The notes under the pieces were generated by a model that had not been told where the DNA came from, made no database searches, and was given only the letters and a program-made list of their open reading frames with translations. From positions 248,001-312,000 of the forward strand of contig JAEMGR010000001.1 of NCBI GenBank assembly GCA_016458225.1: DNA of 64,000 nt, read 5' to 3'. Below are positions 23,235 to 39,166 of the stretch, piece by piece. This stretch comes from Myxococcaceae bacterium JPH2 (GTDB lineage Bacteria; Myxococcota; Myxococcia; Myxococcales; Myxococcaceae). Both the position numbers and the translations under genes were made by a program. How positions within the stretch are numbered: the first letter of the stretch is position 1; every line of letters begins with the position of its first letter.

Positions 23235-24395
23235 TCACACTTCCGGACCACGAAGGAAGGCGGGCAGGAACACCGAGAAGCGAGCCCCCCCTCCGGGCGC
23301 GTTCTCGGCGGTCAGCCGACCTCCCATCCCCTGAACCAGTCGCAAGGACACCGCCAACCCCAGGCCAGTCCCCTGGCGCCCTTTCGTCGTGAAGAAGGGC
23401 TCGAAGAGGCGCGGCATCACCTCGCTCGGAATGCCAGGGCCGGAGTCCTCCACATCCACGCGAACCGCATCGCCCTCGCGTCGGGACGTGACGCGCACGC
23501 GCCCCTGCCCGCCCATTGCCTGAGCGGCGTTGAGCAACAGGTTGATGACAATCTGGGACAGCGGACCTGAATCCGCGCGAGCCAACACGCCCGGCGCCAG
23601 GTCGAAGGCCACCTCCACGCCGGACAGCTCCGGGCCCGCGCGCACGAGCCGCGTGCACGTCTCCACTACCTGCCCCACATCCACCGGAGTCGACACCGAG
23701 GCCGCCGGGCGGCCCAAGTCAAGCAGGCCACGGATGATCCGATCGATCCGCAGCACTTCCTGATCGATGTGACCCAGGTAGTCACGCAGCTCGGGTGTCT
23801 GGGCCCGGGCACGGGCCAGGGACAGATACCCGAGGATACCGGACAGGGGGTTGCCCACCTCGTGCGCCACACCCGCCGCGAGCCGGCCCACGGTGGCCAA
23901 CCGCTCCGCGGCGACCAACTCCGTCTGCGCATGAGCCAGCCGCGCGTTCGTCTGCCGCAGTTCCTCCAACTGGCTGCGCGTGAGGGCCTGCTCCTGGCGC
24001 AGCGCGTCCGCCATTCGCTGCAGCGCACGCTGGATGCGCGACATCAACGGCCCGCCCTGTGAGGACAAGGGCAGGTCGAGCTCCAACCTCCCGAGCTGTT
24101 CGACAGACTCTTCGGTGGCGCGCAGCGGACGTCCCACCGTGGTGTCGAGCACCAGGTATGCGAGCACCGACAGCGCGACGAGATCCAACCCGAGCGCCAG
24201 CGGCAGGAACCCGCGCACGCGCGCCAGCCCCTCTGCCTCGGCGGTGCCGGGAAGCGCGAAGCGCCGCGCGATCTCCAGCAAGCGGATCAGCACCGGCTGC
24301 AGCGTCAGCCAGGTCAGCCCCGTGGAGAGCGACCCCAACAGGAACGCGACGCTGGCGATGCGCCACTTCACCCGCGTCCCCGACTCACCGCACAC
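23235..24395 (-). CDS. pilS2: sensor histidine kinase PilS2
   Basis: The 386-residue kinase has two membrane segments (about 13-33 and 63-83) flanking a short extracytoplasmic loop, a HAMP-like linker and coiled coil, the HisKA box with His178 in GVAHEVGNPL, and a HATPase domain (N box LLNAAQAMG; G boxes DSGPGIP and GTGLGLAV). It should phosphorylate the neighbouring NtrC-type regulator. The GTG start overlaps the pilD stop by 11 bases; a GTG at 24371 is an alternative. The two-component pair is named from its position in the pil locus. Confidence 0.82.
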   Translation of the reverse strand: MCGESGTRVKWRIASVAFLLGSLSTGLTWLTLQPVLIRLLEIARRFALPGTAEAEGLARVRGFLPLALGLDLVALSVLAYLVLDTTVGRPLRATEESVEQLGRLELDLPLSSQGGPLMSRIQRALQRMADALRQEQALTRSQLEELRQTNARLAHAQTELVAAERLATVGRLAAGVAHEVGNPLSGILGYLSLARARAQTPELRDYLGHIDQEVLRIDRIIRGLLDLGRPAASVSTPVDVGQVVETCTRLVRAGPELSGVEVAFDLAPGVLARADSGPLSQIVINLLLNAAQAMGGQGRVRVTSRREGDAVRVDVEDSGPGIPSEVMPRLFEPFFTTKGRQGTGLGLAVSLRLVQGMGGRLTAENAPGGGARFSVFLPAFLRGPEV

Positions 24396-25434
24396 CTCCG
24401 AGGAGCAGCCACAGCTCGCGAGGAAGCACCGTCGCGAGCCAAGGCCCCAGGAGCATCAGCTCGAGGCCCGCCACCGCGAGCCAGGGCCCGAAGGGAATGT
24501 TGGTCGGCCCCGGGACCCAGTCTTCTTCTTCCCCCGCCTCGTCCACGGGCGCGTCTGGGATGGGCTGGAACACAAGGCACCAGGGGATGAGCAACAGCCG
24601 CTTGCCCCAGGACAGACCCGGCCGGGTGAACTCCCAGGTCATCTTGAGTTCAGGCTCGGCTTCGGGCTCTTCACCCTCTGGAGGAGGCGCATCGGCCGCC
24701 GACTCCGGAGCCGGCTCTCCTCTGGGTCCCGCCCGTCCAGTGAGCGCGAGCAACGCGACCCCCACCACCGCGCCCTGCAACGATGAGAAGAAGAGGATGC
24801 CCAGCAGCGCGCGCCAGCTCAGGAACGCCCCCAGCAGCGCCACGAGAAACTTGTCCCCTCCTCCGAGCGCCTCCTTCTTGAACACCTTCCAGCCCAGGTA
24901 CTCCATGAGCCGGAACGCGAGGAATCCCACCAGCGCGCCCACCGCAGCGTCCCGCACGACATCCATCCCACGCGGAATCGCGAGCAACACGCCCGCCGCG
25001 ATGCCCGGCAGCGTCAGCGAGAACGGGAGGATCCAATGCTCCAGATCAATGAACGTGAGCGGGACCAGCAGCATCACGAGCACGAGCGCCGGCACCAACT
25101 CATAGGTCCAACCAAACCGGCGCTGGCACGCGAGGAACAGCAGGCCCGTGAGCAATTCCACCAAGACGTAGCGCGGGGAGATGGGCGCGCGGCAGGCTTG
25201 GCACTTCGCCCTCAGCCAGAGCCATGAAGCAACAGGGATGTTCTCATACCAGGCCAGCACGTGGCCGCACTTCGGGCAGCGCGAGCGAGGGCGGACGATG
25301 CTCAGCTCTTCCGGGACGCGTGCGATGACGACGTTGAGGAAGCTCCCCACGCACAGTCCGAGCACGAACAAGTAGAGGAAGAAGAGGGACTCGGCCCAGC
25401 CCGGCGCGGACGAGAAGGTCACGGAGCCGTCCAT
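24385..25434 (-). CDS. pilD: prepilin peptidase/N-methyltransferase PilD
   Basis: The 349-residue multi-pass membrane enzyme cleaves the type III signal peptide of prepilins and N-methylates the new N-terminus. The two CxxC zinc pairs (Cys53/56 and Cys78/81) are in the first cytoplasmic loop, the catalytic Asp130 is in FIDLEHWILP and the second catalytic Asp194 in GGGDK. It is longer than usual (about 260-290) because of an acidic, Pro/Glu-rich cytoplasmic insert (about residues 222-300) before the last membrane helix. It is divergent from pilA across about 212 bases and upstream of pilS2. Confidence 0.95.
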   Translation of the reverse strand: MDGSVTFSSAPGWAESLFFLYLFVLGLCVGSFLNVVIARVPEELSIVRPRSRCPKCGHVLAWYENIPVASWLWLRAKCQACRAPISPRYVLVELLTGLLFLACQRRFGWTYELVPALVLVMLLVPLTFIDLEHWILPFSLTLPGIAAGVLLAIPRGMDVVRDAAVGALVGFLAFRLMEYLGWKVFKKEALGGGDKFLVALLGAFLSWRALLGILFFSSLQGAVVGVALLALTGRAGPRGEPAPESAADAPPPEGEEPEAEPELKMTWEFTRPGLSWGKRLLLIPWCLVFQPIPDAPVDEAGEEEDWVPGPTNIPFGPWLAVAGLELMLLGPWLATVLPRELWLLLGGVR

Positions 25435-25492: not shown

Positions 25493-25509
25493 TTGGCAGC
25501 CCGCCTGCC
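25493..25509 (+). promoter_or_regulatory. second candidate sigma54 (-24/-12) element
   Basis: TTGGCAG-N5-CTGCC with the invariant GG (25495-25496) and GC (25507-25508) exactly 10 bases apart. The -24 half matches well and the -12 half less so. It would place transcription about 130 bases upstream of the pilA ATG, and may be a secondary promoter or a decoy. Confidence 0.35.
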
Positions 25510-25571
25510 CAGGAAGCATCCCGGGCGCGCACTTCCATGGGAATATTCGAGGGATGGCCCCCTGGCCGCTG

Positions 25572-25587
25572 TGGCACCGTTCGTGCT
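25572..25587 (+). promoter_or_regulatory. sigma54 (-24/-12) promoter of pilA
   Basis: TGGCAC-N5-GTGCT: the -24 half is a perfect consensus TGGCAC, and the GG (25573-25574) and GC (25585-25586) dinucleotides are separated by the required 10 bases. The -12 half is GTGC where the consensus is TTGC. Transcription would start near 25598, giving a leader of about 50 bases. Known biology agrees: M. xanthus pilA is sigma54-dependent and controlled by the NtrC-type regulator PilR. Confidence 0.75.
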
Positions 25588-25646
25588 ACTTGTCCGCGGG
25601 TCGTCCCTCAACAACCCCCTGCGCCTTCTCGCGGAGTCCCAAGCAC

Positions 25647-26231
25647 ATGATCCGTTTCTTCCGGAAGAAGGGTGGCTTCACCCTGATCGAGCTGATGATC
25701 GTGGTCGCCATCATCGGCATCCTGGCCGCCATCGCCATCCCGAACTTCATCCGCTTCCAGGCCAAGTCCAAGCAGTCTGAGGCGAAGACCAACCTGAAGG
25801 CGCTGTACACCTCGCAGAAGGCGTACTTCGGCGAGAAGGACAAGTACCTCACCAACTTCAAGACCCTGGGCTTCACGCCTGAGGCTGGCAACCGTTACAG
25901 CTACGGCCTGGCGCCGGCCTGCAAGGCTGCCGCCGCGGTCACCGGCCGAGCCTATACCACCGGCTGCATTGAGCAGGACGTCGCCCGGTTCCCCACCGCG
26001 CCGGGTACGGCTGCAGATCCCGTCGGCACCGTTGGCGTGGTCGGCACCTGCCCGAGCTGTGACTTCAACGCCTCCGCCGTTGGCAACGTCGACAACGACG
26101 ACAACGCGGACACGTGGGCCATCACCTCGTCCACCACGACGATCACGCTGACCGGCACCTGCGGCAACGACGCGACCGCCATCTCCGGCGGCGAGCCGGG
26201 CAACGCGTACAACGACGTGAGCTGCCCGTGA
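25647..26231 (+). CDS. pilA: major type IV pilin PilA
   Basis: The 194-residue prepilin has the type III signal MIRFFRKKGG cut before Phe11 (FTLIELM), with the essential Glu at mature position 5 (residue 15) and a hydrophobic helix to about residue 38. The globular part has six cysteines (92, 107, 135, 138, 172, 193), suited to disulfides, and a Ser/Thr-rich stretch at 160-171 next to an Asn/Asp-rich stretch (147-155). The ATG is chosen because it directly gives the leader peptide, with GCGGAG 10 bases upstream. Sigma54 elements precede it and a strong hairpin follows it. It polymerises into the pilus fibre used in S-motility. Confidence 0.97.
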   Translation: MIRFFRKKGGFTLIELMIVVAIIGILAAIAIPNFIRFQAKSKQSEAKTNLKALYTSQKAYFGEKDKYLTNFKTLGFTPEAGNRYSYGLAPACKAAAAVTGRAYTTGCIEQDVARFPTAPGTAADPVGTVGVVGTCPSCDFNASAVGNVDNDDNADTWAITSSTTTITLTGTCGNDATAISGGEPGNAYNDVSCP

Positions 26232-26276
26232 TGTCATCCGCCTCCTGTTGAGCAAGGGAGGCATTGCATCCCCAGC

Positions 26277-26303
26277 GGGGCTCTCGGGAAGACCGAGAGC
26301 CCC
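26277..26303 (+). terminator. strong hairpin between pilA and pilG
   Basis: A perfect 11-base-pair stem (GGGGCTCTCGG / CCGAGAGCCCC) with a 5-base loop (GAAGA) lies 46 bases after the pilA stop and 22 bases before the pilG ATG. The trailing sequence GTGTGCGTTTC is only weakly U-rich. It probably ends or stabilises the abundant pilA mRNA and lets a fraction read into pilGHI. Confidence 0.75.
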
Positions 26304-26324
26304 GTGTGCGTTTCAGACAAGCCC

Positions 26325-27251
26325 ATGAGCAAGCTGCCTGCCCTGGTGTTGCCCGCTGGACTGCTGTCCTTGTGCCTGCTCTCGGCTCCTCCCGCGTCCG
26401 CGCTGCGTTCGGGAGACAGCCCCTTGCTGCCGCGCCCCGGTTTGCTGCGCGCGCTCTTCCGGGGACAGTTGGGGCTGGTCGCCGACTACTTCTGGGTCCT
26501 CACCATCAACCGGGTGGGCATCTCGCGCTCGGCCCTAGATCACCGCGACATCTACTATTACGCGGACCTCGCGACGGATCTCGATCCGCGCTTCGCGAAG
26601 GTCTACACCTTCGCGGGGATCAACATCCCCATCCATCTGGGCCGCGAGCACTACGCCAACGCGAACGAGTCGACCCAGCTCTTGCGCAAGGGCGTCCTTC
26701 ACGTTCCGGAGGACGAACGCACGCAGTTCCAGCTCGCCTACAACCTGATGTTCTTCCATCACCAGTACAAGGAAGCGGGCGACATCATCTCGGCGCTGTC
26801 GAGACGCCCTGACGCCCTTCCCTGGTACTCCGCATTGGCCACGCGGCTGTATGCCCAGTCCGGCGACTTCGACACGAGCATGTCGCTCGCCGAGATGATG
26901 CGCGACAGCGCCGAGGACGACGAGACTCGCGCCTACTTCGAACGCCGCATCCAGGAGATTCTCCAGGAGCGCGTGCTCCGGCAGCTCGACAGCGCGGTGG
27001 CTCAGTACCGTGAGCACCATGGCAAGCTGCCCGCCACCGTGGAAGCACTCGTCGAGCCGGGGCTCCTGACCCAGCTCCCGGAAGATCCGCTCGGCGGACA
27101 CTTCTATCTGGCGGATGACGGGCGGCCGTACTCCACGGCATCGAAGTTCCGCCTGGAAGTCATCTACGACGAGCGGGCCGCCGACGGCACCCGCATCGTT
27201 CCCCACCCCCACACTTCGGAGACGGACGGTCATGCAACCGGTACCCCCTGA
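26325..27251 (+). CDS. pilG: T4P biogenesis protein PilG
   Basis: The 308-residue protein has a signal peptide (about residues 1-25, ending ASALRSG) and an alpha-helical, TPR-like body (helical pairs around DPRFAKVYTFAGI and ERTQFQLAYNLMFF), with a C-terminal beta segment (GGHFYLADDGRPYS). In M. xanthus PilG precedes the PilH/PilI ABC transporter and is needed for pilus formation; no enzymatic function is known. I favour the ATG at 26325; a GTG at 26304 would start right at the base of the hairpin. It overlaps pilH by 20 bases. The identification rests on position between pilA and pilHI plus overall character. Confidence 0.8.
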   Translation: MSKLPALVLPAGLLSLCLLSAPPASALRSGDSPLLPRPGLLRALFRGQLGLVADYFWVLTINRVGISRSALDHRDIYYYADLATDLDPRFAKVYTFAGINIPIHLGREHYANANESTQLLRKGVLHVPEDERTQFQLAYNLMFFHHQYKEAGDIISALSRRPDALPWYSALATRLYAQSGDFDTSMSLAEMMRDSAEDDETRAYFERRIQEILQERVLRQLDSAVAQYREHHGKLPATVEALVEPGLLTQLPEDPLGGHFYLADDGRPYSTASKFRLEVIYDERAADGTRIVPHPHTSETDGHATGTP

Positions 27252-28212
27252 CGCTCCTCCCATCCAGGCCCAGGGCCTCTCCAAGACATACAAGGTCGGC
27301 TTCTGGCTCAACCGCACCGTGCGGGCGCTCCAGGGCTTGGATCTCCAGGTGGGCGCGGGGCAGATCTATGGGCTGCTCGGGCCCAACGGGGCAGGCAAGT
27401 CGACCACCATCAAGATCCTCATGAACCTCGTGCGTCCGAGCAGCGGCACCGCGCTGCTGTACGGGCGTCCGGTGGAGAATGCCGCCACGCGACGGCTCGT
27501 GGGGTTCCTGCCTGAGAATCCCTCGCCCTATGACTATCTGACGGGACGCGAGTTCGTGACCCTGGCGGGGCGCCTGTCCGGACTCAGTGGCCACGACCTG
27601 GATCGCCGCGTGACGGAGGTGCTCGGCGCGGTGGAGATGGCCGGCGCGGAGAAGCTCCAGATTCGCCGGTACTCGAAGGGCATGGTCCAGCGCGTGGCGC
27701 TCGCGCAGGCCTTGGTGGGGCGCCCCAAGCTGCTCATCCTCGACGAGCCCACGAGTGGATTGGATCCGCTCGGGCGCCGGCAGATGCGCGACCTCATCCT
27801 CGCGGAGCGCGACAAGGGCACCACCGTCCTGTTCTGCAGCCACATCATCCCGGACGTCGAGGCGCTGTGCGATCGCCTCGCCGTGCTCGTGGGTGGCCGC
27901 CGCGTTCGCGAGGGCAGCGTGCAGGAGTTGGTGTCCGCGCAGGTCCCCACCGTCGAGATGGTGGTGGAGAACCTCAAGTTGGATCAGGTGCAGCAGCTCG
28001 GTGTGCCGCTGGAGTCGGCACAAGCACTCGACGGGCGTGTCCTGCTCCAGGTGTCGGACGCGAACAGCCAGCGACTGCTCGGTGGCGTGCTCGGCGCGGG
28101 GGGCCGCGTGAACCGGGTACAGCCCGCGCGGTTCTCGCTGGAGCAACTCTTCATGGATGCCCTGAAGGAATCGGGCCGGGTCACGAGCGTGGGCGGGGAG
28201 ATCAACACATGA
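27232..28212 (+). CDS. pilH: ABC transporter ATP-binding protein PilH
   Basis: The 326-residue ATPase has Walker A GPNGAGKST (50-58), signature YSKGMVQR (147-154), Walker B LLILDEP (167-173), and the switch His in FCSHI. It belongs to the CcmA/NatA-type ATPases that pair with ABC-2 permeases. In M. xanthus PilH is required for T4P assembly; the transported substrate is not established. The ATG at 27232 lies inside the end of pilG with GGAGACGG before it, and the stop overlaps the pilI start (ATGA). Confidence 0.93.
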   Translation: MQPVPPDAPPIQAQGLSKTYKVGFWLNRTVRALQGLDLQVGAGQIYGLLGPNGAGKSTTIKILMNLVRPSSGTALLYGRPVENAATRRLVGFLPENPSPYDYLTGREFVTLAGRLSGLSGHDLDRRVTEVLGAVEMAGAEKLQIRRYSKGMVQRVALAQALVGRPKLLILDEPTSGLDPLGRRQMRDLILAERDKGTTVLFCSHIIPDVEALCDRLAVLVGGRRVREGSVQELVSAQVPTVEMVVENLKLDQVQQLGVPLESAQALDGRVLLQVSDANSQRLLGGVLGAGGRVNRVQPARFSLEQLFMDALKESGRVTSVGGEINT

Positions 28213-28976
28213 ACGCGTTCACTGCGATGGCGTGGAACGGCTTCCGCGAGGCGCGCCGCAACAAGGTGACGGTCGTCGTAGGTGCCTTCGCCGCGGTCGT
28301 TCTGCTCTCCTCCACGCTGGTGACAGAGGTCACGGTCAGCACGTTCGACCGTGTGTTGACGGACTTCGGACTCGGGACGATGAGCCTCATCCTCGCGTTC
28401 CTCACCATCTTCCTCTCCAGCGGACTGCTAAGCCGAGAGATTGAACGGCGCACCATCTTCCTCATGGTGAGCAAGCCGGTGTCTCGCACGCAATTCCTGG
28501 TGGCTCGGCTCGCGGGCAACATGCTGACGCTCGCAGTGCTCGTGGCCGCGATGACGCTCATCTTCCTCAGCCAGCTCCTGATGTTCGGCGCGGCCATCAC
28601 CTCCACGCAGCTCCTCGCCGCGGCGGGGCTCTGGTTCGAGCTGCTGGTGCTCAGCAGCGCGGGCATCCTGTTCTCCAGCTTCTCGGGGCCGGCTGTCTCC
28701 GCCATCTGCACCACGGGCCTGTACTTCGCGGGACATCTGGCGGGAGACCTGTATGAGATTGCGAGCCGCTCGGAGAGCACGTTCGTCCAGACGCTGGGCA
28801 GGGTCATCTATTACGCGCTGCCCAACCTGGAGCGGATGAACTTCCGGCCGCGCGCGACCTACGCGCTCGCCATAGACGCGGGAACGTTCCTGTCTGCCGC
28901 GGCGTATGGCGTGGCCTGGGCGGCGGTCTTCACCGCCATCGCCGTCTTCATCTTCGAGCGCCGCGACTTCCGGTAG
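28209..28976 (+). CDS. pilI: ABC-2 type permease PilI
   Basis: The 255-residue integral membrane protein has about six membrane helices (first around residues 21-40) and the ABC-2 permease pattern, including SREIERRTIFLMVSKPVSR after helix 2. It is the membrane partner of PilH. Its ATG overlaps the pilH stop by four bases. It ends only 8 bases from the convergent TPR/GT-C gene, so the pil operon stops here and the glycan-type island begins. Confidence 0.92.
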   Translation: MNAFTAMAWNGFREARRNKVTVVVGAFAAVVLLSSTLVTEVTVSTFDRVLTDFGLGTMSLILAFLTIFLSSGLLSREIERRTIFLMVSKPVSRTQFLVARLAGNMLTLAVLVAAMTLIFLSQLLMFGAAITSTQLLAAAGLWFELLVLSSAGILFSSFSGPAVSAICTTGLYFAGHLAGDLYEIASRSESTFVQTLGRVIYYALPNLERMNFRPRATYALAIDAGTFLSAAAYGVAWAAVFTAIAVFIFERRDFR

Positions 28977-28984
28977 CGGCGCCC

Positions 28985-30769
28985 TCAGGGCTGGGTGGGG
29001 ACTGGGGCTGTGCTCGCGGCGCCCGCCGTGAGCGCGGCCCGCGCCGAGGACAGGGCTCGGCGCGCGGGCTCTGAGTCCGGGCGCAATCGCAGGGCATCCT
29101 CTAAGGGTTGCACAGCCTCCCCCGCGCGGCCGAGTTGCAACAACGTCCGACCCAACTCCAGGCGAGCGTCCGCGAACTCGGGATCCAGCTGGGATGCCTC
29201 GCGGAATGCGACCAACGCATCATCCATTCGCTTGGCCCGCCGCAATGCAAGTCCCAGGTTGTGGCGAGGCGTGGCACTTCCGGGCTTCAGGCGGACCGCC
29301 GCCTCCAACTCACGAATCGCCTTATCGAAGTGCCCGAGCTGCGCATACGCCACCGCGAGATCGCTTCGCACCCGGAACTCGCCCGGCAAGGACTTCGCGG
29401 CGACCTCCAGGTGAGGAAGGGCGTCTTCCACGCGGCGCGCATGGAGATAAGCGGCCCCGAGCCACGCATGGGCCAGAGCACGTCCAGGTGCTCGGCTCAC
29501 GGTGTCCTCCCAGAGCGAGACTGCGTCATGCCACACCGGCACGCGCAGTCCCGTCAGCAGGGCCGCGATGACCATCATCCCCACAGAGGCGACCATCGCT
29601 GCGCGGGTGCCCCGGGGCCATCGCGTGAGCACCTCGCGGAGAGCCACCGCGAAGACCACGATGAATCCCACAGAGGGCAAGTAGAGGTAGCGCTCCGCGT
29701 AGGCCTCAACGCCACCAGCCTGGAGCACCAGGACTGGAAGCAGCGGAACCCACCACCAGACCAATCCAGCCCCCAGCGCGCGCGACCCGAGCCTTCGCGA
29801 GAGGAGCAGCAGTCCCACCAGCGCAGCGACGGTGAGGCCGCCCATCAACACTCGCGGCTCCCAGACTGAGCGCACCCAGGTCGACGGCGGCACCGCCACG
29901 AGCGGATGCGGCCAGAACAGCTTCCCGCCCAGCTCCGTCACCAGCGCCAAGGCGTCCAGCCCGCTCGCCGAGCCCTGAGCCATGTGGTGGCTCGTCCGAG
30001 GCAGCACCCATCCCAAGGCGTTCAGACGCAACGTCGCGTACAGCCCCAGCGCCAGCGCGAGCGGCCCGTAACGCCGCAGTCGCACGCGAAGGCCTCGCGA
30101 TTCACCTTCCGCCGCGAGCAACTCGAGGCTCCACACCAGCACGGGCAGGATGATGGCTGTCTCTTTCAGGAGGAGTCCCGCCAGCCAGGCCACCGCCGCC
30201 CAGCACGAGCGCCCCCAGGACACCGGCGCCGGGAAGAGCAGACGCACGGCGATGAGCACCGCCAACGTCGCCCCCAGGTCCATCCAGCCGCTGATCCACG
30301 CGACGGCCTCCACGTGCACCGGATGCACCGCGAAGAGCGAAGCGCCCACGACGGCAGCCCACTCCGCCGGGGCGCTCGGCTGACCTCGGCGAAGGCAGAA
30401 GCGCAGCAGCCACCACACGAGCACCGAGGCCGCCGCGTGCGCGAGCACGAGCAGCAAGTGGTATCCCCAGGGGCTGGTGCCGAACACTGCGCGCAGCATG
30501 AAGAACGTCACGTGAGCCAGGGGGCGGTAATAGCCTGCGCCCACCTGCACCTCGGTCGGATCCTCCGCGAACCCGAAGAGTGACTGGCCCCAAGCCGTCC
30601 TCAGCCCGTCCAGCGAGCGTATCCACGGGTTCTCCAGCAACAGCGATACGTCGTCGTAGACGAAGCCATTGGCGAGCGCGCCCGCATACACGAGGAGCGC
30701 AAGGAACACGACCCAGAGGGCCTGGACCAATGAGCGTGGAGAACCAGGAGAAGGCAGGTCGAAATCCAT
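28985..30769 (-). CDS. membrane GT-C-like protein with C-terminal TPRs (TMTC-like)
   Basis: The 594-residue protein has about ten membrane helices (residues about 15-400) and three or four TPR units at the C-terminus (about 425-560). The first lumenal/periplasmic loop carries the diad NGFVYDD, followed by NPWI, YYRPL, and HPVHVEAVAWISGWMD; these are hallmarks of the TMTC/GT-C family, whose DD loop binds polyprenyl-phosphate sugar donors. Start taken at the ATG at 30769, since upstream codons in this frame read through the divergent gene. No good Shine-Dalgarno is seen. It is paralogous to the divergent gene at 30986. Function as a glycosyltransferase acting outside the inner membrane is inferred. 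Confidence 0.82.
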   Translation of the reverse strand: MDFDLPSPGSPRSLVQALWVVFLALLVYAGALANGFVYDDVSLLLENPWIRSLDGLRTAWGQSLFGFAEDPTEVQVGAGYYRPLAHVTFFMLRAVFGTSPWGYHLLLVLAHAAASVLVWWLLRFCLRRGQPSAPAEWAAVVGASLFAVHPVHVEAVAWISGWMDLGATLAVLIAVRLLFPAPVSWGRSCWAAVAWLAGLLLKETAIILPVLVWSLELLAAEGESRGLRVRLRRYGPLALALGLYATLRLNALGWVLPRTSHHMAQGSASGLDALALVTELGGKLFWPHPLVAVPPSTWVRSVWEPRVLMGGLTVAALVGLLLLSRRLGSRALGAGLVWWWVPLLPVLVLQAGGVEAYAERYLYLPSVGFIVVFAVALREVLTRWPRGTRAAMVASVGMMVIAALLTGLRVPVWHDAVSLWEDTVSRAPGRALAHAWLGAAYLHARRVEDALPHLEVAAKSLPGEFRVRSDLAVAYAQLGHFDKAIRELEAAVRLKPGSATPRHNLGLALRRAKRMDDALVAFREASQLDPEFADARLELGRTLLQLGRAGEAVQPLEDALRLRPDSEPARRALSSARAALTAGAASTAPVPTQP

Positions 30770-30985
30770 GAACGGAGGTCGGCAATGTACCACCGCCGCA
30801 GCAAGGACACCCGGCGCCTCCCCACCTGCCCCTCGGCCCCACGCACGCTCGCCACACGCGAGACCGCTGAGCGCGCGTGAAGCGCATGCGCCTGTGACAA
30901 CCCAGATGGATTGGTATCGTGCCAGCGTGGTCCTGCCATCCAACCCCATCCACCCTTGCGCATCTCCACTGCGGAGCAGCCTGCC
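30770..30985. other. divergent intergenic region between two TPR/GT-C genes
   Basis: This 216-base gap must hold the promoters of both divergent membrane-protein genes. I see no convincing -10/-35 pair, -24/-12 element or inverted repeat. A GGAG at 30973-30976 serves the rightward GTG start. Confidence 0.5.
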
Positions 30986-32749
30986 GTGAGCCCTTCCTTC
31001 GACGAGCAGGAGTCCGCGACGAGTGCGCGCAGGTCGCGGATCCAGGGATTGAGCGTGGCGCTTGTCGCCATGGCGGTGTACGTCCCAGCGCTGACGGGAG
31101 GCTTCGTCTACGACGACTATGCACTCGTTGACGCGAACCCGTGGATCCAGTCCCCGGTCTGGCTCGGTGAGGTCTTCCGGCACCAGCTCTTCGGTTTCAA
31201 TCCTACAGCCACTGCGAGCGCCGCGTTCTACCGCCCGCTCACCCATGTGGCGCTGCTCGCCATCCACCTCCTGGCGGGCGTGAGGCCCTGGGCCTACCAC
31301 TTGCTCCCTGTGCTGTTGCACGCGGTGGCCTCGGTCACGCTGTCGTCCCTGACGCGACGATTGGCGGGAGCACTCCGCCCCAACGTGGCACTGGCTGCGG
31401 GTTTGCTCTTCGCGGTGCATCCGGTGCACGCAGAGGCCGTTGCGTGGATCAGCGGTCTCATGGATGTGGCCACCACCACGGCGGGACTCGGCGCGCTGTG
31501 GATGCTCGCGACACGCGGCCTGAGACCTCGGCGCGCCGTGGCGGGAGCGGCGCTGTGGCTGGTCGCGTTGCTCTTCAAGGAGGTCGCCGCGCTCGTTCCG
31601 CTCATGCTGCTCGCCTGGGAGGTCATGGATACACAGGACCCTCGTCCGCGCCGCGAGCTTGTGTGGCGCTATGGGGCGCTCGGCGTGGCCGGTGGGCTCT
31701 ATCTGGCGATGAGATGGAACGCGGTGGGGTGGGCCGTGGCGAACTCGGGATGGGCGGCCGTGCCCCCGAGCATCGCGTGGCTCAATACCCTCCCCCTGCT
31801 CGCAAGCTACGCACGCCTGCTCACCATCCCGTCCGGGCTGAGCATCTTCCATCACTTCGAGCCCTCGACATCCATCACGGAGGGCCCGGTGGTGCTCGGA
31901 GCGCTGGTCGTGGTGACCCTCCTCGTCGCGCTCGCGCGGCTGCGAACACGCGTGCCGCTCGCCTGGCTGGGGCTGCTCTGGGTCATCCTTCCGTTGCTGC
32001 CCGCACTCCATCTGCGTGCGCTCGGAGAAAGCCCGGTGGCCGAACGGTATGCCTATCTCCCTTCAGCAGGCCTCTGCATCCTGTTGGCCATGGCCTGGAA
32101 CGCATGGGAGCAGGGGGGCCGTCAACGCTCGGTCGCCCTGCTCGTGGGCATCGGCGTCCTCGTGGTCGCGACGGCGAAGACCTCCACCCAGGTCCTCGTG
32201 TGGCAGGACGAAGTCAGCCTGTGGGCGAACGCGGTGGACGTGGAGCCCGCGTCTCCTGTCCCCGCCTATCAGCTGGGAGCCACGCTGCTCCGTGAAGGCG
32301 AAGCTGAGAGAGCACTCCCTGTCCTGGACCATGCCGTGGTGATGCGCCCGACGTACTCGCCCGCGGTCGAGGCCCTGGCGCAGGCCCTACTCCAGAGCGG
32401 ACAGGCTGCTCGCGCGCGCGAACTCCTGGAGGCAGCCATCCCCAGCGCGCCCACCCTTCCCTCGTTCCACTTCCGCCTGGGCGAAGCGAAGCGTGCGCTG
32501 GGTGATCTCCCGGGCGCGGCCCAATCGTTTCGCGAGGCCGCGAGGCTCGACCCCCGCAGCACCGACGCCCGCGTGTCACTCGGCGAGGCCCTGTTGACGC
32601 TGGGTCAGATCTCCGCCGCGCAGTCCGCTTTCGACGAGGCACGGGCACTCTCGCAGAACTCTCCCGCGGTCCAGCAAGCGTGGCAGCGCGCACGGCAAAC
32701 GCCTGTCCCTGCGGAGAACGGCTCCACCTCCGAGTCCGGCGTCCCCTGA
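30986..32749 (+). CDS. membrane GT-C-like protein with C-terminal TPRs (TMTC-like), paralogue
   Basis: The 587-residue protein has the same architecture as the divergent neighbour: membrane helices over the first two thirds, the GGFVYDD diad loop, NPWI, FYRPLTH, HPVHAEAVAWISGLMD, then TPR units from about residue 420 (PAYQLGATLLREGEAERALPVLD). The start is a GTG at 30986 with GGAG nine bases upstream; an upstream extension in frame has no family resemblance. It is likely a glycosyltransferase using a polyprenyl-phosphate-linked sugar on the periplasmic side, with TPRs for acceptor binding. Acceptor and sugar are unknown. Confidence 0.82.
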   Translation: MSPSFDEQESATSARRSRIQGLSVALVAMAVYVPALTGGFVYDDYALVDANPWIQSPVWLGEVFRHQLFGFNPTATASAAFYRPLTHVALLAIHLLAGVRPWAYHLLPVLLHAVASVTLSSLTRRLAGALRPNVALAAGLLFAVHPVHAEAVAWISGLMDVATTTAGLGALWMLATRGLRPRRAVAGAALWLVALLFKEVAALVPLMLLAWEVMDTQDPRPRRELVWRYGALGVAGGLYLAMRWNAVGWAVANSGWAAVPPSIAWLNTLPLLASYARLLTIPSGLSIFHHFEPSTSITEGPVVLGALVVVTLLVALARLRTRVPLAWLGLLWVILPLLPALHLRALGESPVAERYAYLPSAGLCILLAMAWNAWEQGGRQRSVALLVGIGVLVVATAKTSTQVLVWQDEVSLWANAVDVEPASPVPAYQLGATLLREGEAERALPVLDHAVVMRPTYSPAVEALAQALLQSGQAARARELLEAAIPSAPTLPSFHFRLGEAKRALGDLPGAAQSFREAARLDPRSTDARVSLGEALLTLGQISAAQSAFDEARALSQNSPAVQQAWQRARQTPVPAENGSTSESGVP

Positions 32750-32809
32750 CTCGCAGCGCGGCTCGCAGCCACAAGACTCCCGGACGCCGCGAGGGCGCCC
32801 CGAATAGAC

Positions 32810-34546
32810 TCAGCCAGGGGTCAGCGGGGTCAGTCCAACCTGTCCCGCCGCATCTCGGCGGAGTCGATAGAACCGCCGCTCGGGCATGAGGGCTCGGAGC
32901 GCGGCTTCGACGCCTGGGCCATCGTGCACCACGAGCACCCGGTCGCTCAGATCCGGATGGGGGCGCCGCCACTCAAACACGAAGGAGCCCTGCTGTTTGA
33001 AGCGCGGAAACGAGAGCCACACCTGGCTGTATCTCGGCGCCAGCACCACCGCATCTTCGAGGGCGGGGTCATCTACCACCGAGTACAGCTGCTCATGAAT
33101 CTCCGCCTGCCGTCGCAGGGCGAGCCCATTCCAGACCGTGAAGGTGCCCATGGCCAGGAACAGGCTCAAGGAGAGCGCACCCACGAGCGCGGTCGTGGGC
33201 AACGCGCGCTCGCGAAGCAGCTCCAACAACTTCACGGTTCCCGCCACCGCCATGAACGTCAGCGGCACCGCCGCGTCCGAGTAGTGGATGGGGCCCACCA
33301 TGTGAAGGCCATGGTCATCATGGATGAGCGCCACGGCGAGACTGGCCACGACACCCCACCCCAGCCGTCGCGACAGCGGATCCAGAACCCACCCACTCGC
33401 CACCAGCACCAGCCCCACGGGCCCCAGGAACCACAGCGCCAGCATCACCAAGTTGTAGCTGAAGTTGGCGCCGAACCGTTCCCAGAACCGCTCGGGGCTC
33501 CACACGCCCTTGAAGTGCGCGAGGTAGGGATGAATCACCTCGTTGTTCGAGGCGAGCCGCGGCGGGATGATTCCTCCTGTCACGACCAGGGCGTGAATCG
33601 CCGTCGCGGCGAGCGGGATGGCGAGGCCCAGGGCGAGTCCTCCCACCATGCGCCCTCCCTCCTTCCGCCGGACCGAGGCCACCACCTCTGTGAGGATCAG
33701 GGGAGCCGTCAGCGCCACGATCTCGAAGGGCCGTGTCATCGCCGCGCCGCCCAGCGCCAGCCCTGTCCAGAACCACGCCCTGGCCGTCCGCTTCTCCATC
33801 GCGATCACGAACGCCCACAGCCCCAACGCCAGCCCCGCGCGCGAGAGCACGTGCGCGTGCGTGGTGAAGGACAACAGCTCCACCATTGGCGAGGCGAGGT
33901 ACAGCGCGACCGCTAGCAGTGCCCCCGTCGGGCCATGGCGCCGCGCGCCCCAGCCAATCACTCCCAGCACGCCCAGCGCGGCGGCCAGCGCGAAGACTCC
34001 GGGCCCAAGCCCCGTCAACTCCGCCGTAGCCCAAGCGAGCTGAACGCCCAACCAATCCAACCCGGCCCACTGCCCGCCATGCGCATAGAGGAACAGGTCC
34101 GAGAACGCCCCGACCTGCGTGGGACGAGGAAGTGCCACCTTCCCCAACGCGAGCACCTGCCCACCGAAGCGGGCGGCCCACTCGTCGTCGGTGAAGGGAA
34201 AGTCTCGCAGGAAGAAGGCGTGGCCCACGCGCGCCAGACCGAAGGCGAGACACGCACCCATGACCGCCCCCATCCGCTGTTCCGCGGGCGTCATCCGCTC
34301 CACGCGTGCGCTCACTGCCGCGAGCACGCGGGAGATCCACGGCGCCAAGGCAATGCCCATCAGGCCTGCGCCAGGAAGCGCGAGCAACAGCGTGCCGAGC
34401 CAGAGATAGGCCTCGCCCGGACTCACCTGCGTCCAAGGGGGCTGGTAGCTGACGAACATGCCCGGCGCGGTCTGCGTGAGCCCGAAGAAACAGCCATACA
34501 GGGTAACGCCGCAGAGCAGCAGGCCGACCCGATGTCGCGTGGTCAT
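32810..34546 (-). CDS. GT39/ArnT-like integral membrane glycosyltransferase
   Basis: The 578-residue protein has about 12-13 membrane helices. The first large loop holds FTDDEWAARFG, the Asp-Asp-Glu pattern that binds the polyprenyl-phosphate sugar in GT39/ArnT-type GT-C enzymes. A C-terminal soluble domain (about residues 470-578) follows. It probably transfers a lipid-linked sugar to a glycan or protein in the periplasm. It is convergent with the gene ending at 32749 (60-base gap) and divergent from the WecE-type aminotransferase. No TPRs are present, unlike the other two GT-C proteins of the island. Confidence 0.75.
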   Translation of the reverse strand: MTTRHRVGLLLCGVTLYGCFFGLTQTAPGMFVSYQPPWTQVSPGEAYLWLGTLLLALPGAGLMGIALAPWISRVLAAVSARVERMTPAEQRMGAVMGACLAFGLARVGHAFFLRDFPFTDDEWAARFGGQVLALGKVALPRPTQVGAFSDLFLYAHGGQWAGLDWLGVQLAWATAELTGLGPGVFALAAALGVLGVIGWGARRHGPTGALLAVALYLASPMVELLSFTTHAHVLSRAGLALGLWAFVIAMEKRTARAWFWTGLALGGAAMTRPFEIVALTAPLILTEVVASVRRKEGGRMVGGLALGLAIPLAATAIHALVVTGGIIPPRLASNNEVIHPYLAHFKGVWSPERFWERFGANFSYNLVMLALWFLGPVGLVLVASGWVLDPLSRRLGWGVVASLAVALIHDDHGLHMVGPIHYSDAAVPLTFMAVAGTVKLLELLRERALPTTALVGALSLSLFLAMGTFTVWNGLALRRQAEIHEQLYSVVDDPALEDAVVLAPRYSQVWLSFPRFKQQGSFVFEWRRPHPDLSDRVLVVHDGPGVEAALRALMPERRFYRLRRDAAGQVGLTPLTPG

Positions 34547-34674
34547 GTGGGTCCCAGCCTACCAGCCCGTGCGGCGACCGCACGAGGTGACATGAGTCAC
34601 CCGCGCGCGCGTTGACGGGTGCGGTCCTCATTCATCATGCTTCCTCGCGCAGCCCCTCTTCCCCCCGGTGCTCA

Positions 34675-35829
34675 TTGATTCTCTTCACCCGTCATTGCTC
34701 CGCGCCGAACGAGACCCGCTACGTCAGCGAGTCACTCGCCTCGGGCCACACCGAAGGCGATGGGCCATTCACCCGGATGGCGAGCCGCATGCTGAGCGAG
34801 CGGACGGCAGGGGCCCGGGTCCTGTTGACTCCGTCGGGAACGCATGCCCTTGAGCTGGCTGCGCTCACGCTCGACGTGGGGCCCCAGGACGAGGTCGTCC
34901 TGCCCTCGTACACCTTCTCCTCCACGGCCAATGCATTCGCTCTGCGCGGCGCTCGCCTGCGCTGGGCCGACGTCGATCCTCACACCTTCAGCATGGAAGC
35001 CGCGCAGCTCGAGGCCGCCTTGACGCCTCGCACCACGGTGGTGGTGACCATGCCGTATGGAGGCGTGAGCCAGGACACCGAGCGCATCGCGCGCATGTGC
35101 GCCGCACGCGGGATCCGCCTGGTGGAGGACGCTGCCCATGCGCTCTTCGCCTCCACGAGCGGCAGACCGCTGGGCAGCTTCGGGCAGCTCTCGGCCCTCT
35201 CGTTCCATCGCAGCAAGAACGTCTCGTGCGGCGAGGGCGGCGCGCTGCTCATCACCGACCCCGCGCTGGCCGTGCGCGCGGAGATCCTCCGCGAGAAGGG
35301 CACGGACCGCTCGCGCTTCCTGCGCGGCGAGGTGGACAAGTACACGTGGCAGGAGGCGGGCAGCAGCTGGCTGCTGGCGGATGTGCTCGCCGCGGTCCTC
35401 GCGGCGCAGCTCGAACACGCCGAGGAGTCGCAGCGCCACCGGATGGCTTTGTGGAATCGCTACCATGAGCGCTTCGAGGAGCAGCAGGGCCGACTCGGCC
35501 TCCAGCTCCAGGCCACGCCCGCGGGGACGCAGCATCCGGCCCACCTGTTCGCACTCCGGCTCCCTGCCCACGTCGACCGCGCGGCGCTCATCCAGCGCAT
35601 GGCCGGCGACCAGGTCCGCGTCGCGTCCCACTACGAGCCGCTGCACCTGTCGCCGCTCCAGACCCGCGCGAGAACCGAGGGAGCGCCCACGCCCGAGCTT
35701 CCCGAGACCGAGGCCCTCGCCCCCCGGCTCCTCCGGCTCCCCCTCCATGGGGGAATGAATCTGGAAGACGTGGACCATGCCGCCGCCGCACTCATTCGCG
35801 GCATCGAGCAAGGGGCGCGCAGGTCGTGA
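34675..35829 (+). CDS. wecE: WecE-type dTDP-4-amino-4,6-dideoxygalactose transaminase
   Basis: The 384-residue PLP enzyme of the DegT/DnrJ/EryC1 family aminates a dTDP-4-keto-6-deoxyhexose. The PLP lysine is Lys181 in SFHRSKN, and Asp152 in VEDAAH contacts the cofactor. The segment GTDRSRFLRGEVDKYTW (209-225) closely matches the WecE signature, which separates it from most other sugar aminotransferases. I start at the TTG at 34675 because MILF followed by 21 residues aligns without gaps to the start of E. coli WecE (MIPF); an upstream TTG at 34612 would add an unrelated extension. The stop overlaps the GT2 start (GTGA). Confidence 0.87.
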   Translation: MILFTRHCSAPNETRYVSESLASGHTEGDGPFTRMASRMLSERTAGARVLLTPSGTHALELAALTLDVGPQDEVVLPSYTFSSTANAFALRGARLRWADVDPHTFSMEAAQLEAALTPRTTVVVTMPYGGVSQDTERIARMCAARGIRLVEDAAHALFASTSGRPLGSFGQLSALSFHRSKNVSCGEGGALLITDPALAVRAEILREKGTDRSRFLRGEVDKYTWQEAGSSWLLADVLAAVLAAQLEHAEESQRHRMALWNRYHERFEEQQGRLGLQLQATPAGTQHPAHLFALRLPAHVDRAALIQRMAGDQVRVASHYEPLHLSPLQTRARTEGAPTPELPETEALAPRLLRLPLHGGMNLEDVDHAAAALIRGIEQGARRS

Positions 35830-36821
35830 GCCTCGCGCCGGACACCCGAACCCAATCCTCCCGCGAGGGCCTGCGCTATTCCTTCGTGGTCCCCATCTAC
35901 AACGACGGCGAGTTGGCCGCGGACTTCGCCGCCGAGTTCGAGCGCGTCTTCCAGCGACACCTCGGGCAGGAGCGAATCGACGAGCACGCCGAACTCATCT
36001 TCGTGGACGACGGAAGCCGCAACGCCTCCGTCCACGTGCTCTTGAACGACGTGCTGCCGCGCTTCAAGTTCGTGCGCGTCATCGAGCTGAGCCGAAACTT
36101 CGGCCAGCACATCGCGCTGTCCTGTGGCTACCAGCACGCGCGCGGACAGTACGTCGGCATGCTCAACGTCGACATGGAGGATCCGCCCGACCAGATTCCC
36201 GCGCTGCTCGCGCACCTGGAGCGCGGAGAGGCGGACATCGTCCACGGCCTCTACGAAATGAGGGACGTCACCTGGCTCAACCGGATGACCTCTCATGCCT
36301 TCAACTCGGTGCTCAACCGGCTCACGGGCTATGCCGTGCCGCAGAACAGCGCCACGCTGCGCATCATGAATCGGCGCTTCGTGGACGCGTACAACTCGCT
36401 CACGGAGAAGAGTCGCTACATCCCGGGGCTGGAGTTCTGGCTCGGCTTCCGTCATGCCTACCAACCCATGCGGCACCAACGGCGCACGCGAGGCAGCTCC
36501 AGCTACAACTTCCGCCGTCGCCTGCGCATGGCCTTGGAGACCATCATCTCCTTCTCGGACCTGCCCCTGAAGATGGCGGCGGCGCTCGGCATGGGGATCG
36601 CGCTCGTCGGCCTGCTGATGGTGCTCTTCCTCGTCATCAGCAAGCTGTTCTTCGTGGACTATCAGGCCGGCTACACCTCCACCATCTCCATCACGGTCTT
36701 CCTGGGCGGCGTGCAGATTCTCGTCGTGGGACTGGCCAGCCTCTACATCGGACGCATCCTGCGCGAGGTGCAGAACCGCCCGCTCTATGTCGTGCGGGAA
36801 GTCCACGAGGCCCAGCGATGA
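35826..36821 (+). CDS. GT2 glycosyltransferase, polyprenyl-phosphate sugar synthase type
   Basis: The 331-residue protein has an N-terminal GT-A domain of the DPM1/ArnC/GtrB family: FVVPIYNDGE (20-29), LIFVDDGSRN, RNFGQHIA, and NVDMEDPPDQ, the metal/nucleotide motif. Two membrane helices at the C-terminus (about 254-280 and 292-316) match ArnC/GtrB. Such enzymes move a sugar from a nucleotide to undecaprenyl phosphate at the cytoplasmic face. Coupled by GTGA and ATGA overlaps to the aminotransferase and dioxygenase genes, it is the natural donor-maker for the three GT-C proteins nearby. Sugar identity is inferred only from the neighbours. Confidence 0.87.
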   Translation: MSLAPDTRTQSSREGLRYSFVVPIYNDGELAADFAAEFERVFQRHLGQERIDEHAELIFVDDGSRNASVHVLLNDVLPRFKFVRVIELSRNFGQHIALSCGYQHARGQYVGMLNVDMEDPPDQIPALLAHLERGEADIVHGLYEMRDVTWLNRMTSHAFNSVLNRLTGYAVPQNSATLRIMNRRFVDAYNSLTEKSRYIPGLEFWLGFRHAYQPMRHQRRTRGSSSYNFRRRLRMALETIISFSDLPLKMAAALGMGIALVGLLMVLFLVISKLFFVDYQAGYTSTISITVFLGGVQILVVGLASLYIGRILREVQNRPLYVVREVHEAQR

Positions 36822-37615
36822 GTGCCGCCGAGGTGCTGACGAACCCCACGCCCGAGCAACTCCGCGAGCGCATCGCCACCGACGGATACGCCGTGGTCGG
36901 AGGCGTGATGCCCCCCGCCTATATCGCCCAGGCGCGCGAGGACCTCGCGCGGGCGGTAGCGCAGGAGAAGGCGTGGCACCAAGGACGTGCCTACCGCGAC
37001 GAGAACATGGTCCTGGTGTGCTCGATGTACGGCGGCGCCTTCTGGACGCTCTTCGACCAGGAGGCCGTCATGCGCCCCTTCGAGGCGGTCATGGGCCCGG
37101 GCTGCATCGTGTACGCCTACACGTCCTCGTCAATGCCGCCCCAGGGCAACAACTACTCGACGCGCATTCACGTCGACTGCCCTCGCCTCATTCCCGGGTA
37201 CGTCACCAACATGGGCGCCACGCTGCTCCTCAATGACTTCACCGAGGAGAACGGCGCGACCTGGCTGCTGCCCAGGTCCCACACTCAGGCCGAGGCCCCG
37301 TCCGAGGAGGAGTTCTTCGCGCGAGCCCGACGCGTCATCGCGCCCGCGGGCAGCGGCTTCTTCTTCAACGCACGACTGTGGCACGCGGGCGGAGTGAACC
37401 GGACGGCGGATTGGCGCCACGCGCTCACGCTCAACATGTGCCGCCCCTACATGAAGCAACGCATCGACATTCCACGCGCCATGGCGCAGATGGACCTGTC
37501 GTCCATGTCCCCCCGCGCGCGGCAGAAGCTAGGATTCCTGGCGCAGGTGCCCGCGTCGCTCGACGAGTACTACGTCCCCCCCGCGCTGCGGAAGTTCCAG
37601 CAGGAGACCGAGTAG
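36818..37615 (+). CDS. phytanoyl-CoA dioxygenase (PhyH) family protein
   Basis: The 265-residue member of the Fe(II)/2-oxoglutarate oxygenase superfamily has the double-stranded beta-helix facial triad: His118 and Asp120 in RIHVD and distal His189 in LWHAGG, with Arg200 placed to bind 2-oxoglutarate. All key residues are present, so it should be active. In glycan clusters such enzymes hydroxylate sugars or their precursors; the substrate here is unknown. It overlaps the GT2 gene (ATGA) and the methyltransferase start by one base, so it belongs to one operon. Confidence 0.85.
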   Translation: MSAAEVLTNPTPEQLRERIATDGYAVVGGVMPPAYIAQAREDLARAVAQEKAWHQGRAYRDENMVLVCSMYGGAFWTLFDQEAVMRPFEAVMGPGCIVYAYTSSSMPPQGNNYSTRIHVDCPRLIPGYVTNMGATLLLNDFTEENGATWLLPRSHTQAEAPSEEEFFARARRVIAPAGSGFFFNARLWHAGGVNRTADWRHALTLNMCRPYMKQRIDIPRAMAQMDLSSMSPRARQKLGFLAQVPASLDEYYVPPALRKFQQETE

Positions 37616-38469
37616 TGACCACGGCCAAGAATGACCAGGTGATTGCCGCCAACATCGAAGTCCACTCGCGACTGGCAGCCATCTACGAGAAGACGGAGCC
37701 TCATTTCCGCCCGGAGAATGTGCGCTTCGTGGAAGGGCGCCTGCGGGAGCTGGCCGCGCGCACCCAAGCGAAGCGCATGCTCGACCTGGGGTGCGGCACC
37801 GGGTTCGTCATCCGCATCGCGAAGCACTTCGTTCCCGAGATTCATGGCGTGGACGTCACTGCCGCCATGCTCGAGCAGGTGGACCGGACAGGCCCCTCGC
37901 GCATCACCCTGCACCAGCACGACACGGGGACCTTCCCCGCCGAGCCCGGTGCCTTCGACCTCGTCACCGCCTACTCGTTCCTTCACCATCTCTATGAGGT
38001 CGAACCCACGCTGCAGACCGCTGCGCGCGCGCTGCGGACGGGCGGGTGTTTCTACGCGGACCTCGATCCCAACTTCTATTTCTGGCAGCAGGTGGAGTCG
38101 CTGGAGCGCGGTGGTAACTACGCTCCGGTGCTGCGTCGGGAGATCGAAGCGGTCGCGTACAAAGACGAGGAGATGCAGCGCACCTACGGCATCGACGCCG
38201 AGACCTTCAGCCATGCCGAGTATGGCAAGGACTTCCTCGGCGGATTCCGCGAGGAGGTGCTGCGCGAGCAGCTCCAGCGCGTGGGCTTCGGCCAGGTCGA
38301 CTTCCACTACTACTGGTTCCTCGGCCAGGCCTCCCTCGTGAATGCTCCCGGCGTCGCTCCCGACGTGCGCCAGAGCAACGCCGCGATGGTTGACGAGACG
38401 CTCAAGGCCGCGCTGCCCCTGTCGCGCCCCCTCTACAAGTACGTGGGATTCACGGCCATCAAGGAGTGA
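37615..38469 (+). CDS. class I SAM-dependent methyltransferase
   Basis: The 284-residue protein has the SAM-binding motif I MLDLGCGTG (about 55-63), the acidic residue of motif II (HGVDVT), and a post-motif region YSFLHHLYEVEP typical of small-molecule or sugar methyltransferases (Methyltransf_11/25). The GTG start overlaps the stop of the dioxygenase gene by one base. It ends the plus-strand part of the island and overlaps the convergent WbqC-family gene by 11 bases. A sugar or lipid-linked sugar substrate is inferred from the operon. Confidence 0.85.
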   Translation: MTTAKNDQVIAANIEVHSRLAAIYEKTEPHFRPENVRFVEGRLRELAARTQAKRMLDLGCGTGFVIRIAKHFVPEIHGVDVTAAMLEQVDRTGPSRITLHQHDTGTFPAEPGAFDLVTAYSFLHHLYEVEPTLQTAARALRTGGCFYADLDPNFYFWQQVESLERGGNYAPVLRREIEAVAYKDEEMQRTYGIDAETFSHAEYGKDFLGGFREEVLREQLQRVGFGQVDFHYYWFLGQASLVNAPGVAPDVRQSNAAMVDETLKAALPLSRPLYKYVGFTAIKE

Positions 38470-39166
38470 TGCCCGAGGCGCGCTCCCGCCAGCCCCAGAT
38501 GGACTGGGGCGCGTCGGGCCCCTGGTTGAACAGCAGGTCCACCACGCTCACTTCGTGAACAAAGGGGGGATGGAGCTGCGGGTACTCGGGGTAGCCCCGG
38601 TAGCTGAAGTACGTGAGCTGGATGCCCGCGGCGGTGAACGCGGCGGGGTCCAGATAGGCGGACGCGGCGGGACCGGACACGTACTCCGTCGTCCCGAGCT
38701 GCGTCAGCAGATCCATCAGCCGCTCGCCCTTGTGGCCCGTCAGCGTGAACTCGCGCGAGTCGCGGAACGCGGTGGTGAGGCCCAACTCCTTCGCCAGGAG
38801 GAGGATGAGGTGCTGGTTCAGCGCGGACAGGTGAGTCCATTCGCGCCCGAGCAACGCCTCCTTCAAGAGCGGCCCGTAGCGTGGCCAGAAGGCGGCGTGC
38901 CGGTAGTTCTGCCGAAGGATGTCGTAGTGACGCGCGGCCCAGGTGCTCTCGGTGAAGGTCACCTCGCAGATGAGCCGGTGGATCTTCGCACCCACAGGGA
39001 GGGACAACCACTCGGGCCCTCGCGGTGTCTTGATTCGATTGCGGTGGCGCCAGTCGTTCTTGGTGAACTGGACGTCGTCGTAGAAGACGAACAGGTCCAC
39101 CGAGCGCATCAGGTCGAAGTACCCCTTCCACGGCAGGTAGTTGGACTGGAGCACCGCGACCTTCAC
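38459..39166 (-). CDS. WbqC-family protein
   Basis: The 235-residue protein shows the family hallmarks: N-terminal VAVLQSNYLPWKGYFDL, DVQFTKNDWRHRNRIK, and a C-terminal LLFNQGPDA. WbqC proteins occur in O-antigen and capsule clusters, often next to amino-sugar genes; their biochemical role was long unassigned and may concern acylation of amino-sugars. The start codon overlaps the stop of the GNAT gene (ATGA), so the two are co-translated. Presence beside a WecE-type aminotransferase fits amino-sugar modification. Confidence 0.85.
   Translation of the reverse strand: MKVAVLQSNYLPWKGYFDLMRSVDLFVFYDDVQFTKNDWRHRNRIKTPRGPEWLSLPVGAKIHRLICEVTFTESTWAARHYDILRQNYRHAAFWPRYGPLLKEALLGREWTHLSALNQHLILLLAKELGLTTAFRDSREFTLTGHKGERLMDLLTQLGTTEYVSGPAASAYLDPAAFTAAGIQLTYFSYRGYPEYPQLHPPFVHEVSVVDLLFNQGPDAPQSIWGWRERASGITP

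Follow-up and report, generated by a model that had tools for sequence, protein, structure and literature searches.

The window analysed here is a 64,000-nucleotide stretch of the genome of Myxococcaceae bacterium JPH2 (contig JAEMGR010000001.1, positions 248,001 to 312,000), and its subject is a divergent pair of genes, A and B, whose products join an N-terminal glycosyltransferase-C (GT-C) membrane domain to C-terminal tetratricopeptide repeats (TPRs). The pair lies inside a type IV pilus cluster of this soil-dwelling, social bacterium, a context beyond that given in an earlier account of the two genes (the sequence-only reading). On balance, and with some reserve, we favour the interpretation that A is a TMTC-like, polyprenyl-phosphate-sugar-dependent O-glycosyltransferase of pilin and that B, an ancient paralogue, was recruited as its neighbour. 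Family membership, predicted fold, conserved catalytic-site residues, paralogy and fixed position at the pil locus form the firm ground of this interpretation. Judged from their sequences, A and B probably attach sugars to proteins, and for at least one of the two this evidence suggests the pilus as target.

Two TMTC-like membrane proteins

The pair and the gap between its members are arranged as follows.

28985..30769, minus strand: protein A, GT-C domain (DD motif) with C-terminal TPRs, 594 aa
30770..30985, no strand: divergent intergenic gap of 216 bp, containing no sigma-54-like or sigma-70-like consensus match
30986..32749, plus strand: protein B, paralogous GT-C/TPR protein, 587 aa

With starts at ATG 30769 (minus strand) and GTG 30986 (plus strand), the 216-base gap between divergent open reading frames (ORFs) described in the sequence-only reading holds, as do the motifs FVYDD, NPWI, YRPL and HPVHxEAVAWISG and the C-terminal TPRs that it ascribed to both proteins. 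A and B were 36 % identical by BLASTP (575 alignment columns, E 2e-80) and 38 % identical in a two-sequence alignment. They were the only full-length family members within the 9.0-Mb source genome, where the remaining 73 of 75 matches to A (E<=10) started at residue 408 or later, in the TPR half. The same divergent pair was found in a congeneric genome (G001, inferred Citreicoccus inhibens M34; A 90 % and B 88 % identical). Sigma-54-like sites numbered three in the whole window against 4.5 expected by chance, which is no excess, and no sigma-70-like site was present across 25400-34700.

Pfam matched the TPRs of both proteins and gave nothing convincing for the membrane half. A profile of the GT-C domain alone had no match among solved structures at E<=10, the best 60 of 612 matches to a full-length profile fell in the TPR half, and the 50 matches listed by Foldseek were TPR-driven; comparison of the GT-C domain therefore rests on VIA-align. 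AlphaFold2 models were of high confidence for A (pLDDT 92.4, pTM 0.92) and B (pLDDT 92.6, pTM 0.90). The modelled membrane domain of A aligned to Stt3/AglB, Pmt4, Pmt1-Pmt2 and ArnT with Z of 18.8-20.9 over 337-350 residues, led by Stt3 of oligosaccharyltransferase (OST; 8agb, Z 20.9, 337 residues, root-mean-square deviation 4.7) and followed by Pmt4 (9i5l, Z 19.8), Pmt1-Pmt2 (6p25, Z 19.5) and ArnT (5ezm, Z 18.8). As modelled, A has the GT-C fold of OST, the protein mannosyltransferases (PMTs) and ArnT. No TMTC structure was among the VIA-align matches listed, which excludes nothing. Residues D39, P150 and K202 of A were invariant across 86 sequences, D39 being the acidic catalytic-site residue of the first loop.

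The likeness to TMTCs proposed in the sequence-only reading stood in part. In the text available from PMC7801869, the animal protein O-mannosyltransferases TMTC1-4 share with A and B an N-terminal GT-C domain followed by TPRs, and likewise the first-loop DD, YRP, KE and ERxxY cores. We found this layout in the window's pair, with TPRs in both proteins and the fold search run on the model of A, and by eye both carry the cores DD (M1), YRP (M2), KE (M4; KET in A, KEV in B) and ERxxY (M7; AERYLY and AERYAY). Equally by eye, both lack SHKS (M2), RxD (M3, where A and B read WMD and LMD), the last T of KE(T/Q)xxT (M4) and DW (M5). The Pfam family TMTC_DUF1736 had no match in A or B at E<=1, and was matched in three of 59 rows, A and B among the rows, at E<=0.1. 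The further proposal of protein rather than glycan targets is favoured by our analysis.

Position of A and B relative to pilI

The pair forms part of a glyco-cassette of approximately 10.7 kb that extends from pilI to pilR beside pilA-G-H-I, with A convergent to pilI and 8 bp separating their ends. We sampled 96 genomes (Myxococcaceae, inferred), counting as an A orthologue any protein with at least 50 % identity to A (one, in G073, was partial). Matches to A at E<=1e-15 occurred in 29 genomes, of which 21 carried an A orthologue and eight only more distant members. The A gene was located at pilI in all 21 A-positive genomes, directly in 16 (the window included) and with one gene between in five, this spacer of approximately 2.5 kb being a YfhO-like gene. 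PilI was detected in 88 of the 96 genomes, at 77 % identity or more to that of the window in 29 and at 66 % or less in 59; A was present in 21/29 of the former and 0/59 of the latter. A is therefore a gene of the pilin locus tied to an allele type, as pilin-accessory genes are. B was present in seven of the 96 genomes and at the locus in three of them, namely next to A in two Citreicoccus and one Corallococcus (G079), all inferred; in the other four, all inferred Myxococcus, it lay approximately 5 Mb from A.

The site of insertion could be followed in genomes with and without A. Between pilI and pilR lay 2,269-12,085 bp in those A-positive genomes for which the gap was measured, 16 of the 20 besides that of the window (L049, L189, L200 and L231 gave no measured pair). 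Among the eight A-negative genomes with the same pil type, six had an empty site of 19-59 bp and two carried other inserts, a YfhO-like gene in L230 and, in L227, a different set of sugar genes. The latter insert (L227:9492-14364; G105, inferred Myxococcus) comprised a GT2, a PMT_2-like GT-C, a methyltransferase and a GT4. Queries for the PMT2, DegT, WbqC and GT2 genes of the cassette were also matched in seven of the 16 measured A-positive genomes. At the lower extreme, the 2,269-bp gap of L199 left room for A only, and the same four queries were unmatched there.

The remaining features of the locus are listed below.

24385..25434, minus strand: PilD prepilin peptidase
25554..26231, plus strand: PilA, major type IV pilin, the proposed acceptor
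26304..27251, plus strand: PilG homologue, named from gene order, with no family match
27226..28212, plus strand: PilH homologue (ABC ATPase)
28206..28976, plus strand: PilI homologue (ABC-2 permease), near edge of the insertion
32810..34546, minus strand: GT-C transferase of another kind (PMT_2), with no TPR match
34612..35829, plus strand: DegT aminotransferase, matching a dTDP-4-amino-4,6-dideoxygalactose transaminase model at 402 bits against a cut-off of 375
35826..36821, plus strand: GT2 of the GtrB/ArnC/PgfS type, by similarity a polyprenyl-phosphate sugar donor synthase
36815..37615, plus strand: PhyH-like dioxygenase
37600..38469, plus strand: methyltransferase
38459..39166, minus strand: WbqC-like protein
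39163..39714, minus strand: GNAT acetyltransferase, with a PseH model match below cut-off
39711..41363, minus strand: PilR homologue, far edge of the insertion
41171..42820, minus strand: PilS homologue

To the left of the cassette are homologues of PilN and PilM, a sigma-54 response regulator, a histidine kinase, PilD and PilA homologues and then an ABC system, which occupies the place of the Myxococcus xanthus pilG-H-I genes. To the right, from 39.7 kb, follow homologues of PilR, PilS, PilC, PilT and PilB, the names PilR and PilB resting on order and sequence with no family match behind them. In L232, L233 and L235 the genes pilA-G-H-I are collinear with pilR ahead and pilD behind; in the window this segment (24385-28976) is inverted, and only the inverted arrangement has the pilI-pilR junction that holds the cassette.

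Donor, acceptor and alternative explanations

The GT2 of the cassette matched GtrB (5ekp, 1.1e-51) and ArnC (9hwj, 5e-43), enzymes that load a sugar onto polyprenyl phosphate. We propose the donor step because this GtrB/ArnC chemistry is established, and a pilin acceptor because of the position at the pil locus; from these we infer donor, acceptor, topology and order of reactions as follows. The GT2 would place a sugar on undecaprenyl phosphate, the sugar being of a 4-amino-4,6-dideoxy type supplied by the DegT, WbqC and GNAT genes. A, as a GT-C enzyme of the inner membrane, would take the polyprenyl-phosphate-linked sugar on the periplasmic side and transfer it to a Ser or Thr residue of a type IV pilin, PilA being the likeliest; the TPR domain of A, also periplasmic, would assist in binding this acceptor. 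B may add a second sugar or serve another acceptor, and B and PMT2 may extend the glycan or use other acceptors.

A link to pilins was also apparent beyond the A orthologues. In L216, L221 and L240 the gene immediately after pilI encodes a distant GT-C relative (27-29 % identical). In a wider sample, comprising the best 80 of 438 loci from the GTDB collection, 74 loci lay outside Myxococcaceae, and nine of these 74 had a prepilin-type ORF within 1 kb of the TPR/GT-C gene, against 0.53 expected. The expectation derives from the density of PF07963 (279 matches in 88.5 Mb) in a chosen set of 20 genomes that included all nine hit genomes, and is rough in that Pfam was used for the background and a regular expression for the hits; taking the far band as background raises the expectation from 0.5 to approximately two loci. 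Because L059 and L068 are sisters, the nine do not count as independent. The prepilin ORF of Smithella (L108) lay 76 bp from the GT-C match. As for the pilin itself, the C-terminal Ser/Thr fraction of PilA was 0.129-0.203 in 19 A-positive genomes and 0.097-0.127 in six A-negative genomes of the same pil type, a complete separation (full PilA was lacking for L199, L224 and L228, and L231 was not included). Further along L240, we observed long membrane ORFs, one of which appeared by eye to be STT3-type oligosaccharyltransferase-like.

A number of observations weigh against a pilin acceptor for A, or dilute the evidence for one. ALG12 (9s6t), an enzyme of lipid-linked glycan, aligned to A with Z 19.5, as high as the protein-modifying enzymes; the predicted GT-C fold leaves the acceptor unfixed, because ALG12 and ArnT, which acts on lipid A, also match and the PDB is rich in OST and PMT structures. 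The relative that follows pilI in L240 (L240:2944-12000; G017, another genus of the family) has no detectable TPR. In 65 of the 74 loci outside Myxococcaceae there was no prepilin ORF within 1 kb, and on this evidence the family, taken as a whole, is not concerned with pilins alone. Enrichment was confined to the closer scale: over 5 kb, near (14 ORFs in 678 kb) and far (11 ORFs in 506 kb) sequence showed no contrast. The Ser/Thr enrichment of PilA with A is a hint only, because it reduces to three independent contrasts, all in the same direction (p 0.25, with the threshold set after the values were seen), and because nine A-less pilins of other pil types average 0.167. The 21 A genes may descend from a single insertion and so are not 21 independent events: the tree of PilH+PilI (37 rows) gives four changes of state for A, for example one gain and three losses. 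The EL4 region, compared by eye, keeps the family pattern in B and departs from it in A, and the donors or acceptors of A and B may therefore differ. Lastly, the solitary B loci of the four Myxococcus contained no prepilin-type ORF in approximately 20 kb each; the other cassette queries of the window were likewise unmatched in these neighbourhoods, for which gene calls came from a rough script. Our preference for a pilin O-glycosyltransferase is not stronger because ArnT and ALG12 are not protein glycosyltransferases and because one distant neighbour of pilI has no detectable TPR.

Two functional alternatives were considered. The cassette may make or decorate a surface polysaccharide or lipopolysaccharide, the pilI-pilR junction being no more than a tolerant insertion site. 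Its DegT, WbqC, GNAT and GT2 genes belong to types often met in gene clusters for O-antigen and exopolysaccharide, and the A-less G105 bears a different glycosyltransferase set at the same site (L227). We regard this explanation as unlikely, given that L199 has A with no PMT2, DegT, WbqC or GT2 match beside it, that distant GT-C relatives stand behind pilI in three other lineages and that prepilin genes adjoin nine of the 74 more distant loci. Alternatively, A and B may O-glycosylate a broad range of periplasmic or secreted proteins, with a pil location of historical origin. The 65 relatives that are not beside a prepilin gene and the solitary B of four Myxococcus speak for this, as does the precedent of animal TMTCs, which modify several cadherins; the confinement of A to one pil allele type would be needless for a housekeeping role, and we consider such a general function quite unlikely.

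Ancestry, related systems and implications

The relationship of A to B was examined with GT-C domains, for which proteins shorter than 380 aa were excluded, identical cores were merged (240 to 169) and one more sequence was excluded for length (168). In a careful tree of the 67 GT-C domain rows nearest A, the A clade (20 rows) was sister to the B clade (7 rows) with support of 100/96, and the next outgroup comprised single genes of G063 and G083 (98/91), which lie away from any pil cluster. An approximately unbiased (AU) test rejected a grouping of A with G063/G083 to the exclusion of B (p 0.022) and was borderline for B with G063/G083 to the exclusion of A (p 0.052). The sequence-only reading had named a failure of sister paralogy as what would refute it, and on the combined evidence of tree and AU test the paralogy was upheld, if narrowly. 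On the same sister-clade support we do not favour separate acquisition of the two genes from unrelated lineages, though the AU test was only borderline for B with the outgroup.

Both clades contain members from genera inferred as Citreicoccus, Corallococcus and Myxococcus. Because the clades span these three genera and B is distant from A in four of seven B-bearing genomes, A and B are best read as old sister paralogues whose back-to-back layout is one arrangement among others, and the inverted duplication claimed in the sequence-only reading is unsupported. A recent event of this kind is ruled out by the identity (36-38 %), the tree and the distant B copies; the two are not adjacent everywhere and mutually closer than to their orthologues, as recent local duplicates would be. 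An origin of two isoenzymes with different acceptors by local inverted duplication, although compatible with other functional readings, with the well-supported sister clades and with a divergent layout common to two Citreicoccus and one Corallococcus, is improbable given a split that predates three genera, the remote B genes and an identity of 38 %. The Corallococcus pair (L183:7552-11172, G079) is of Citreicoccus type, and its A groups with Citreicoccus A (99/99), apart from other Corallococcus A genes; transfer of this A/B unit is possible. A third, distant TPR/GT-C clade was present off the pil cluster in four inferred Myxococcus (L207-L210), with similar matches in two more.

Several known systems resemble the proposed one in part. 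Systems in which a GtrB/ArnC donor synthase works with a GT-C transferase are known, and the cassette likewise holds a GtrB/ArnC-like GT2 together with GT-C transferases; those systems act on O-antigen or lipid A, whereas the acceptor proposed here is pilin. No flippase was identified for the cassette. The Ogt of cyanobacteria, a cytoplasmic GT-B enzyme with TPRs, belongs to another catalytic class than A. Its gene lies beside pilA and is reported, in the available portion of PMC12288463, to be involved in PilA glycosylation, and it is, as proposed for A, a protein glycosyltransferase gene at a pilus locus. In Pseudomonas aeruginosa the pilin-accessory glycosyltransferases TfpO and TfpW are established as tied to pilin groups, and TfpW is described as a GT-C arabinosyltransferase (PMC11841053, from the portion available). 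By this description they resemble A as accessory genes of a pilin locus linked to particular pilin groups, and differ in that the A gene follows pilI among variable sugar genes and encodes TPRs. Full-length prokaryotic TMTC homologues have already been noted (PMC7801869, in part), and we met no acceptor for them in the literature; A and B differ from TMTC1-4 in being bacterial, in their presumably undecaprenyl-linked donor and in lying beside pilus genes. The stem 'glycos' is absent from the main text of a survey of myxobacterial pilus loci (PMC6060248, as far as available), and in the accessible text of a paper on the structure of the M. xanthus pilus 'glycosyl' appears a single time, in a general statement (PMC11046646). 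Among the papers listed in searches on Myxococcus pilin glycosylation and related subjects, none dealt, by title or abstract start, with a link between TMTC-like enzymes and pilin; the collection searched excludes most subscription journals and all of bioRxiv.

If the proposed role of A is true, members of a large bacterial family without assigned function would gain one. A far bolder extension, which we put forward as a long shot, is that type IV pilins are glycosylated by a hitherto unrecognised class within the TMTC-like TPR/GT-C family, spread over Myxococcota, Acidobacteriota, Gemmatimonadota and others, and that the cadherin-modifying TMTCs of animals go back to a kind of enzyme whose first substrates were adhesive filaments of bacteria. 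The tie of one clade to one pil allele type allows a direct and cheap test by pilin mass, for which the species provide a natural series: A in a large cassette, room for A only, an empty site and other cassettes. In myxobacteria, whose social motility is driven by pili, variation in the sugars on the pilus could influence social recognition and adhesion as well as sensitivity to phage.

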